The notes below the pieces were generated by a model. It had not been told where the DNA came from. It made no database searches and was given only the letters and a program-made list of their open reading frames with translations. Shown in pieces: positions 21,839 to 24,131 of a stretch of 64,000 bases of DNA. Position 1 is the stretch's first letter; the number at the start of each line of letters is the position of its first letter. The stretch is taken from assembly GCF_014131735.1 (NCBI RefSeq), contig NZ_CP039121.1, positions 310,001 through 374,000 of the forward strand, given 5' to 3'. Source of the stretch: Lactiplantibacillus plantarum (GTDB taxonomy: Bacteria; Bacillota; Bacilli; Lactobacillales; Lactobacillaceae). The translations under genes and the position numbers were made by a program.

Positions 21839-22759
21839 TTAAGGTAAATCGTTGCCAGCTGCAAAGTAAATGTCGTACCATTCTTGCCGAGAAAGCGTAA
21901 CGTCTGCTCCAGCAGCATTTTGAGCTAGATGTTCCGGATTCATCGTACCAAGGACGACTTGGAAGTGGGCTGGGTGCCGGAGAATCCATGCGGTCGCAAT
22001 AGCTGATTTAGTGACCTGTTTCTCATCGGCGAGTGCTTGCATGGCATTATTAAGTTCTGGAAACTTCGGATTGTCTAAGAAGATACCCGCGAAGTTACCG
22101 TATTGATAAGGCGACCAAGCTTGAATCGTCATCTTATGGAGCCGTGAGTATTCGATCATCTCGCCGTCGTGGTTAAGACTACGTTCGTCCTGCATGTTCG
22201 TGTGCAAGCCAAAGTCGATCGCACCGGTATGCATGATACCAAATTGGAGTTGGTTGATGATGAGCCGTTGGTTTAGTGCCGCTTGAAGCATGTCAACTTG
22301 CATGGGATTGAAGTTAGAGACGCCAAAGTGGCGCACCTTGCCGCTAGTTTGCAACTTGTCAAAAGCGGCAGCAACTTCTTCGGGTTCCATCAGGGCGTCC
22401 GGTCGATGGAGGAGGAAGGTGTCGAGATAATCAACACCTAAGCGTTGAAGCTCGCCATCCACGGCTGCCAGTATGTGCTGTTTGGAAAAGTCGTAACGCT
22501 TGCCAGGAACAATGCCGCCTTTTGACTGAATATAGAGCTGATCACGCGATACGTGAGCCTGCTTGAGTGCTTGACCGAAGATGGTCGATGATTGACCACC
22601 ACCGTAGATATCAGCTGAATCAACGTAATTGATGCCTAAATCAGCAGCGGTATCGATAACCTTGGTGGCTTGAGCGACATCCAAGGCGTCCATGCGCATG
22701 ATGCCAAGCGCCACGCTGGAAGCTTGAATATTGCTGTGACCTAAATTAATCGTTTTCAA
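21839..22759 (-). CDS. Aldo/keto reductase
   Basis: 306 residues of the AKR superfamily (YdhF-like). Catalytic elements are visible: DSADIYGGGQ (Asp and Tyr), YIQSKGGI (Lys) and FLLHRPD (His). GVSNFNPMQ and the late ATAWILRHPAHFQVVLGTMN are cofactor-binding blocks for NADPH. It reduces small carbonyl compounds in the cytosol; the natural substrate cannot be read. The frame reaches back to a TTG at 22777 that is part of the ribosome site itself. AGGAGG lies eight bases before a second TTG at 22759, which is the likely start. A near-perfect cre box lies 60-75 bases upstream, suggesting carbon catabolite control. Confidence 0.88.
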   Translation of the reverse strand: MKTINLGHSNIQASSVALGIMRMDALDVAQATKVIDTAADLGINYVDSADIYGGGQSSTIFGQALKQAHVSRDQLYIQSKGGIVPGKRYDFSKQHILAAVDGELQRLGVDYLDTFLLHRPDALMEPEEVAAAFDKLQTSGKVRHFGVSNFNPMQVDMLQAALNQRLIINQLQFGIMHTGAIDFGLHTNMQDERSLNHDGEMIEYSRLHKMTIQAWSPYQYGNFAGIFLDNPKFPELNNAMQALADEKQVTKSAIATAWILRHPAHFQVVLGTMNPEHLAQNAAGADVTLSRQEWYDIYFAAGNDLP

Positions 22760-22821
22760 AACTAAAGTCCTCCTCAATGTGCAACTTGATTTAAATTCAG
22801 TATACGGTTTTCGTAAGAGGA

Positions 22822-22835
22822 TGTAAACGGTTACG
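22822..22835. promoter_or_regulatory. cre-like box upstream of the aldo/keto reductase
   Basis: TGTAAACGGTTACG matches the CcpA consensus TGWAANCGNTNWCA at all but the last fixed base. It lies 63 bases before the start codon, in the promoter zone. Confidence 0.6.
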
Positions 22836-22871
22836 TCTGGTGCCGACTGTTGGTAAATCTGATTTTAGAGC

Positions 22872-22909
22872 AAAAAAATAGAACCCAAGGCTTCTCTGCT
22901 TGAGTTCTA
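22872..22909 (-). terminator. Terminator of the candidate ncRNA
   Basis: On the minus strand TAGAAC-T-CAAG pairs with CTTG-G-GTTCTA and is followed by seven Ts. Confidence 0.85.
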
Positions 22910-23483
22910 CTTATGAGGAATAATCCTGATTAGCAATGAAAAATTGTTCAGTGTTAATATGATACACCTTCATGCTATTCAATTTTACGCGTGTCCAACT
23001 TCTAACGGACTAACCCGTATTTATTGTAACTATCTGCTATAGTCGATCTAAAGTAAGGTTGTTACTTGATTGCGACTCGTTAGACGGGTTTTAACGAAAG
23101 TCAAACTCGCGTTTAAAACTTGGGAATGTCTTCGTAACAGACATGCACCTCCGTTTAAACTTTGTAATACCTGAGTCTACAAATGGAACTGGTAATGTGG
23201 AACTAACAACTGGTCATCGGAGACACCTGTTTCCAACTAAAACTTAGTTAAAATCTGTTCGTCATTCTAATGCCAATTAATTCTTTGCGGTTATCGTTTA
23301 TCTAAGGGTCAACGTTCAGTCATCCAACGTAAATCTCACGACACTCGCTAGACCGATAACGCTTCACGGCGCTTAAAACGGTTTCGATAACGACCCAAAC
23401 TGTGATACTAGCTGTCTAACATTACAGCGACAGCCAAACTCTTTTGAGAAGCTTTGCTAATCGAGGATTAATTCCTTTCCTCA
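22872..23483 (-). ncRNA. Candidate 612-nt structured non-coding RNA with its own promoter and terminator
   Basis: The minus strand here has a clear promoter (23490-23518) and an intrinsic terminator (22872-22909), with no open frame of useful length between. The interval is packed with perfect local stems: GCTGTC/GACAGC (23411-23434), ACGTT/AACGT (23312-23330), AACTAA/TTAGTT (23235-23249), ATGTCT/AGACAT (23126-23144), and AGTCG/CGACT with inner AGTAA/TTACT (23041-23077). A longer-range stem joins 23287-23296 to 23354-23362. The sequence CGATAACG recurs at 23385-23392, offering an alternative partner, and GGGTC/GACCC (23306-23310, 23392-23396) adds a competing stem. It is not RNase P, tmRNA, 6S or SRP RNA by their conserved motifs. 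ROOL-type RNAs are of similar size, but the class was not verified. Confidence 0.62.
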
Positions 23484-23489
23484 CTTAGT

Positions 23490-23518
23490 ATAATAGCATA
23501 AACCGCAAACGCTTACAA
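23490..23518 (-). promoter_or_regulatory. Promoter of the candidate ncRNA
   Basis: Read on the minus strand: TTGTAA, a 17-base spacer, TATTAT. The transcript should begin near 23,483. Confidence 0.65.
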
Positions 23519-23669
23519 CAAAAACAACCGTGAATTCGCAATAAAAATCAATAGTGACTCAAAACGCTGCTATATCGGGGATTATAGTGAATTTTTTTCG
23601 AGAAATAGTCGCATAATTTGCTGATTGACCGACCGTTTGAAAAGTCGGTTAATTAGCGCTAATAATTGA

Positions 23670-23697
23670 TTGAATATGGGCTGACATACGGTACAAT
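23670..23697 (+). promoter_or_regulatory. Promoter of the MIP18-type gene
   Basis: TTGAAT and TACAAT are separated by 16 bases. An AAAGCGCTTT palindrome lies about 15 bases downstream and could be an operator. Confidence 0.5.
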
Positions 23698-23819
23698 AGA
23701 AGTAGACAAGAAAGCGCTTTATATAACGATGACGTGTATCAAGTGTGGTGGCACTTATACCGCGAAACGTTGGCGTGATTAATCAGTGAATTCAAGCTGG
23801 TATGGAAGGACGAGATACG

Positions 23820-24131
23820 ATGACAACAACGTTTAAAGACCGGGCCTTCGAGGCGCTAGGACATGTCATTGACCCTGAATTAGGAATTGATCTAGTTAAC
23901 TTGGGGTTGATCTATGATGCACAATTGACGGCGGAGGGGACCGCTGAAATTACCATGACGTTGACCATTGCGGGCTGTCCTTTGACCGAATGGTTGGCTA
24001 AGGACATTCACGATGAACTGATCAAATTACCAGAAGTTAACAATATCGAGATTGAGATTGTGTGGGAACCTGCTTGGAACGAAAGTATGATGTCCCGCGA
24101 AGCTCGAATGGAACTAGGCATTCATAGTTAG
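23820..24131 (+). CDS. MIP18/DUF59-family metal-sulfur cluster assembly protein
   Basis: 103 residues, a single DUF59 domain. HVIDPELGIDLVNLGLIYD is the family's N-terminal signature, and TIAGCPL carries the conserved Cys. IVWEPAWNESMMSREARMELG completes the domain. Homologues (SufT, PaaD, YitW) help mature Fe-S proteins, probably by handing over clusters in the cytosol. The ATG at 23820 follows GGAAGGACGAGATACG; an upstream in-frame ATG at 23802 overlaps this site. The oxygen-sensitive Fe-S enzyme PflA is encoded close by, though convergently. Confidence 0.85.
   Translation: MTTTFKDRAFEALGHVIDPELGIDLVNLGLIYDAQLTAEGTAEITMTLTIAGCPLTEWLAKDIHDELIKLPEVNNIEIEIVWEPAWNESMMSREARMELGIHS

Follow-up and report, generated by a model that had tools for sequence, protein, structure and literature searches.

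A large structured RNA gene with a putative cre-box promoter in Lactiplantibacillus plantarum and other Lactobacillaceae

We describe a large structured RNA of Lactobacillaceae, whose gene lies on the minus strand at positions 22872..23484 of a 64,000-nucleotide stretch of Lactiplantibacillus plantarum DNA (contig NZ_CP039121.1, positions 310,001 to 374,000), the whole of which is called the window below. That this locus is an independent structured RNA gene we regard as practically certain. Conservation with compensatory base changes supports what a sequence-only reading of the same DNA had proposed, namely a large structured RNA bounded by a promoter and a terminator of its own. Our best explanation, held with middling confidence, is that the gene may encode a carbon-controlled large folded RNA scaffold acting in trans. 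Few bacterial RNAs longer than 500 nt are known to keep a conserved fold, and for most of these the function is obscure.

Limits of the gene and its neighbourhood

The RNA is about 613 nt long, its start being placed from the promoter and from conservation. The promoter claimed by the sequence-only reading is present: a sigma-70-type TTGTAA-17-TATTAT at 23490..23518 on the minus strand, with a TG before the -10 element. The corresponding TGnTA pattern at -10 occurs in 60/60 collected members of the family, a count that is partly built in, as most of these were gathered by a pattern containing it. The other end of the gene is formed by an intrinsic terminator (22872..22912, minus strand), likewise claimed before. 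In the genus alignment its hairpin shows 13 conserved pairs followed by a U-run, with 97.7% of cells paired and one pair changed from AU to GC in 8/20 sequences. A simple, strict terminator scan called no terminator at the RNA end, probably because the loop of this hairpin is larger than the scan's loop limit of 8.

Conservation delimits the same unit. Counted from the RNA start, column identity among 20 genus sequences (L013 of genome G018 left out) amounts to 0.26-0.30 between -300 and -100, 0.45 between -100 and -45 and 0.73 between -45 and -1; downstream, counted from the RNA end, it is 0.26-0.29. Because identity rises at -45 and falls past the end, the conserved unit starts at the promoter and stops at the terminator.

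An aldo/keto reductase gene follows directly downstream of the RNA on the same strand, and its protein is matched in 12/13 same-genus named loci. The RNA could thus be thought of as a leader or attenuator of this gene. We consider such a role most improbable, since the RNA has its own conserved terminator, a separate promoter-like site lies beyond it (22827-22799), and synteny is lost outside the genus: when five neighbour proteins, which find matches at same-genus loci, were compared with 16 loci of other genera (2.6-8 kb long, E 1e-10), the only hit was a weak aldo/keto reductase match of 23.5% identity in 1/16. As neighbours are not kept and plasmids, phages and viruses give no match (see below), the gene looks like a chromosomal one acting in trans.

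Two further features lie on the promoter side. A long inverted repeat occupies 23615-23664 of the window, between the RNA promoter and a plus-strand gene that we take to be DUF59-like; in Rfam it has only a sub-threshold microRNA match. The leader of the latter gene (23740-23775 of the window) contains GTGGCAC...ACCGCG, presumably reminiscent of the end of a T-box, with no Rfam match.

Distribution and comparison with known RNAs

DNA of the RNA is present in all 21 examined genomes of the genus, including the window's own, with 73-97% identity in the 20 others; named records identify the genus as Lactiplantibacillus. Each genome carries one locus; the one in G018 contains a repeated part and is therefore matched in four pieces. 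Relatives in further genera were reached by BLAST from a Pediococcus pentosaceus member and by a model of the 3' end, R1. At E 1.2e-5 or better, R1 matches 61 places in 56/397 genomes of the family (five genomes with two places each), which belong to 9/40 genera: Lactiplantibacillus and 8 others. The remaining 341/397 genomes have no match at this threshold in a search whose filters lose weak matches, so the RNA is not universal in the family. Two further genera give weaker R1 matches with an upstream cre box (L138 and L150; 1.2e-4 and 0.0034). A pattern of the promoter and 5' part found 29 stretches among 84,980 species genomes, in Lactiplantibacillus, Pediococcus, Furfurilactobacillus, Secundilactobacillus, Paucilactobacillus and one metagenome assembly titled Lactobacillus sp.

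The 60 collected members extend over 447-956 nt from the conserved start. Left out of this set were L013 (assembly gap), L129 and L153 (second copies), L060 and same-place duplicates; retrieval by place covered the 61 R1 places except those in genomes G158 and G181. Five genomes of the Pediococcus genus (L125, L129, L130, L145 and L153) harbour an additional, divergent copy, about 505 nt long and preceded by a cre-box promoter of its own; the one at L153 is cut by a contig end.

Beyond the family, with the same loss of weak matches, R1 matched 12/295 genomes of an order sample at E 0.01, and these were rejected. Eight of the 12 were inspected, and none is convincing: no cre-like site lies ahead of the match, and several look coding by eye. 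At L161 one loose cre match is located after the R1 match. Weak matches within the family that lack the promoter (L139-L143, L146, L147, L151, L152 and L154) were taken as chance. Among 398 genomes of a class sample at E 1e-4, again with filters that lose weak matches, R1 found only the window's own genome. There was no match in 72,556 plasmid records, the promoter pattern occurred 0 times in viral contigs, and no phage record was matched in the DNA search.

No Rfam family matches the RNA locus when the window is searched at family cut-offs. Lowering the threshold to E 10 for 22500-23900 yields four sub-threshold, chance-like matches to unrelated families, and 12 relatives searched to E 1 yield one (23.4 bits against a cut-off of 218, again an unrelated family). 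ROOL, GOLLD, OLE and raiA give no match, even sub-threshold, in the window, in 22500-23900 or in the 12 relatives. ROOL and GOLLD had been suggested by the sequence-only reading as possible identities; the Rfam covariance models match neither. The mismatch to RNase P and tmRNA noted there is borne out, as both lie elsewhere in the genome above cut-off. A 6S candidate is likewise found elsewhere, just below it (44.5 bits, cut-off 46.4).

In size the RNA comes close to ROOL and OLE, and it could be imagined as a divergent form of ROOL, GOLLD, OLE, raiA or one of the essential RNAs (RNase P, tmRNA, 6S). With no Rfam match at cut-off, none to ROOL, GOLLD, OLE or raiA below it, and the essential RNAs accounted for elsewhere, this is highly unlikely. 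The closest known kinds are ROOL, GOLLD and OLE. ROOL RNAs, among them the lncRNA of Ligilactobacillus salivarius, have about 520-660 nt, no established coding gene, a complex fold and kissing loops, and they occur in Lactobacillaceae (PMC12286853, PMC5643018). ROOL is described from phages and prophages, and the RNA of L. salivarius from a megaplasmid; the present RNA has no phage, viral or plasmid match and possesses a cre-box promoter. ROOL and GOLLD often lie near tRNA islands in phages and prophages, and GOLLD, also a large ornate RNA, is described from phages and prophages (PMC12286853); the present RNA has no Rfam, phage or viral match. OLE is of similar length (610 nt; PMC5643018) but gives no Rfam match here.

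The L. plantarum supermotifs (LPSM, Wels 2009) are large transcribed intergenic RNAs of L. plantarum, said in PMC5643018 to have many copies across strains and to be very specific to this species. The present RNA is unlike that description, with one match in its own genome and homologs in 8 other genera. In 6S RNA of lactic acid bacteria, a cre site overlaps the -35 element in about a third of species, according to PMC8414754; 6S is a shorter and different RNA, whose candidate in this genome lies apart from our locus. In the literature searched we found no description of the present RNA. None of the searched sources yielded the Lactobacillaceae family to which it belongs, which is set apart from Rfam families, and from LPSM by description.

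Secondary structure

Folded as a single sequence, the minus-strand RNA reaches -165.3 kcal/mol; its 20 shuffles give -142.6 ± 6.2, and 0/20 are as good (z -3.67). The plus strand of the window sequence likewise beats its own shuffles (z -3.18), so a single-sequence energy does not tell the strands apart. They are told apart by aligning 20 species: in this alignment the minus-strand fold has -102.0 kcal/mol and 131 pairs, 17 of them with changes on both sides, whereas the reverse complement of the same alignment, used as strand control, has -67.9 kcal/mol, 105 pairs and 7 with changes on both sides.

The structure was predicted with RNAalifold from the 20 genus sequences (131 pairs), after which 7 pairs clashing with the terminator-loop pseudoknot described below were swapped for the 7 pairs of the pseudoknot. 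It is paired in 98.2% of 2606 cells, and pairing drops to 36-44% when the partner is slid by 1-3 columns. Counted on the same alignment that yielded the prediction, the 17 pairs changed on both sides compare with 9.7 ± 1.7 in shuffles, and the 68 cells with such changes compare with 21.6 ± 4.6; 0/500 shuffles are as high in either measure. The count of pair types is no higher than in shuffles (334/500 as high). On whether changes between species preserve the stems, the question posed by the sequence-only reading, the genus speaks for preservation: 17/131 pairs have changed on both sides in a compensatory manner.

Most of this signal comes from an internal branched domain (23287..23394, minus strand), whose helices 6-10 hold 11/17 of the pairs changed on both sides; the stretch occupying this place is tandemly repeated in some relatives. 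Two competing folds had been proposed here, since CGATAACG occurs twice and has one shared complement. The repetition itself is real, but covariation backs only one of the folds. The copy at 23385-23392 covaries with its partner, which we place near 23287-23295 (23289-23296 in the sequence-only reading), from UA to CG in 6/20 sequences and from CG to UA in 2/20. The other copy (23354-23361) reads CGTTATCG in RNA sense in 20/20, and opposite the changed partner of the 6 sequences it keeps a weaker G-U in 4 and a C-A mismatch in 2. The second fold through the repeated CGATAACG is not supported by covariation and is weakened as a proposal.

Within the genus no changes on both sides are seen in P1 or in the majority of 3'-half helices, which are nearly invariant. 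Among them is a 3'-core helix, in which 23084..23090 pairs with 23012..23018 (minus strand, 7 pairs in the genus fold, none changed on both sides in the genus); by eye it corresponds to GCCUG/CAGGU in other genera. The motif AGGUGUNNCCRAUGAC (23212..23228, minus strand) is seen by eye in several genera. The conserved GAAGGUGU motif (22964..22971, minus strand) appears as GAAGGUG in 14/24 lineage representatives and, by eye, as GAGGUG in most of the remaining ones. A cross-genus alignment of the 3' end, A2, gave no consensus pair, so the model R1 is sequence-only; structure across genera accordingly rests on energies of end pairing and on reading by eye.

The two ends of the RNA are predicted to pair with each other. 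In P1, 23477..23484 pairs with 22913..22920 (minus strand, 8 pairs). The helix is invariant in the genus and thus uninformative there on covariation; other lineages have complementary RNA ends of different sequence at this place. P2 joins 23455..23461 with 22929..22935 (minus strand), and one of its pairs changes from AU to GC in 5/18 sequences with letters at these positions. Both helices come from the genus fold and the comparison of lineages, in which P2 pairs better with its own partner than with swapped ones. The first 36 nt, paired with the 75 nt before the terminator, give a mean of -25.6 kcal/mol with the own partner and -17.6 kcal/mol with swapped partners in 24 lineage representatives. 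The own partner ranks first in 9/24 and among the best five in 21/24.

A pseudoknot or kissing interaction would connect the 5' end with the terminator. The CUUCUC near the 5' end complements GAGAAG in the terminator loop, and in the genus GCUUCUC (23446..23452) and GAGAAGC (22890..22896, both minus strand) form 7 pairs in 20/20 sequences, almost invariantly. In 18/24 lineage representatives the segment after P2 has at least 6 consecutive pairs with the terminator loop; such complementarity is absent in L031, L132, L137, L148, L138 and L150 (6/24). One lineage has changed both sides together, CUCCUC with GAGGAG, and another extends the pairing to CUUCUCGCAA with UUGCGAGAAG. Own and swapped partners are not separated overall (-6.6 against -5.3), because the motif is mostly invariant; the own partner does take rank 1 or 2 in the three representatives of the two lineages with changed or extended pairing.

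Carbon control, Shine-Dalgarno-like motifs and possible roles

A candidate cre box, the operator of CcpA, lies over the -35 element (23504..23518, minus strand). Its sequence, TTGTAAGCGTTTGCG, fits what we take to be the cre consensus except at the last base. A cre box stands 32-35 nt ahead of the RNA in 56/60 collected members, 48 of them with the full consensus and 8, the window's own included, with all but the last base; as the search pattern that supplied part of the members includes the cre core, this count is partly biased. Members found only via R1 have it in 16/20 cases, or in 14/18 without L138 and L150, which were accepted partly on their cre box. The site is absent in L134, L135, L148 and L144, and the relative L060, outside the 60-member set, has all but the last base. 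Control upstream DNA of 14,716 bases contains 0 cre matches. The promoter thus carries the conserved cre box by which members of the CcpA regulon are recognized, and control of the RNA gene by CcpA is very probable, judged from sequence. Repression is the effect described for cre sites placed over a promoter (PMC8414754). Upstream of the aldo/keto reductase gene, a cre-like TGTAAACGGTTACG is seen at 22822-22835 of the window, and this neighbour may be carbon-controlled too.

Besides its promoter, the RNA carries elements that could speak to ribosomes. GGAGGUG (23146..23152, minus strand) resembles a Shine-Dalgarno sequence, and GGRGG is found, by eye in the same place, in 22/24 lineage representatives, missing in L144 and L138. 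A hairpin follows directly (23126..23144, minus strand; 6 pairs in the genus, none changed on both sides), and by eye other lineages have a hairpin with different arms after GGAGG. Together with a second Shine-Dalgarno-like motif near the 3' end, of the type GARGGUG, this conservation would fit an RNA that pairs with the 3' end of 16S rRNA and holds 30S subunits or slows translation in starvation. Such a role is rather unlikely: judged by length, the Shine-Dalgarno-like matches do not exceed those of shuffled sequence (between 15 and 60 of 60 shuffles reach the same length), and the fold predicted for the genus has GGAG within a helix.

Behind GGAGGUG lies a 17-codon frame, MSVTKTFPSFKREFDFR (23091..23144, minus strand), which we list as an uncertain gene. 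The sequence-only reading had stated that the transcript holds no gene. The longest minus-strand frame of the interval with an ATG, GTG or TTG start has 23 amino acids, and the 17-codon frame had been missed. The RNA might therefore serve also as mRNA for a small peptide, and SR1 and SgrS are reportedly precedents of such dual function. The Shine-Dalgarno-like motif is combined with ATG or GTG in 19/21 genus copies (the start being ATG in 16, GTG in 3 and CTG in 2), but the AUG sits within the conserved hairpin. Within Lactiplantibacillus the codon score lies at chance level (207/400 shuffles as good), so selection for a peptide is not seen there; in the second and third clade, where the frames have 18 and mostly 27-29 codons, 83/400 and 10/400 shuffles are as good. 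Frames shifted from it reach similar or higher scores, but the majority of them are interrupted by stops. Column shuffles that keep both score and openness number 31/400 in this genus and are seldom met in the other clades (4/400 in the second, 0/400 in the third), which favours a peptide. Against it, by eye Pediococcus has no start codon and Secundilactobacillus has an in-frame stop at the start place, one Furfurilactobacillus frame is only 4 codons long, and L144 of the third clade lacks the Shine-Dalgarno-like motif. On balance we regard a coding function as improbable.

An independent gene with a carbon-linked promoter and short invariant stretches could also encode a regulator that acts in trans by base pairing with CcpA-linked mRNAs. 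Base-pairing regulators are not known to need a size of 447-956 nt, a conserved structure and repeated modules, and we consider this possibility unlikely. That the RNA is a scaffold rather than an antisense regulator or an mRNA we hold to be an evenly balanced proposition.

The mechanism we propose combines promoter logic, taken from the cre box, with a scaffold, suggested by the size, the closure of the ends, the conserved loops and the repeatable arms. CcpA would repress the RNA gene when a preferred sugar is present, and the level of the RNA would rise on exhaustion of sugar or on poor carbon sources. The RNA would then work in trans as a scaffold, either by itself in oligomeric form or together with protein; its terminator loop would be pinned to its 5' end, and its repeatable arms would form a binding surface. 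A more specific version, which we put forward tentatively from sequence features, is that of a CcpA-repressed modular RNA, shared by many Lactobacillaceae, forming an RNA or RNA-protein particle on sugar depletion, possibly a starvation particle or sponge and not a classical regulator. In such a particle, docking of the terminator loop onto the 5' end would take place inside a single molecule or link two of them, and capacity would be adjusted from lineage to lineage through extra tandem copies of one arm. The RNA is found in bacteria of food and probiotic use that are amenable to genetics, and its probable carbon control is a built-in clue to function.

Tandem modules inside the RNA differ widely among relatives. 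The array of L144 has 4.0 copies of 111 nt, and that of L013, which contains a run of N (assembly gap), has 4.0 copies of 174 nt. Repeated segments are visible by eye in L039, L044, L030 and L062; for L044 the same repeat tool reports no array. These natural differences in arm number offer a ready experiment on the role of the repeated arms. In L126 the array amounts to 5.7 copies of 69 nt: about six near-identical copies, with 93% matches, stand at 531-918 inside one RNA gene, which suggests a recent expansion.
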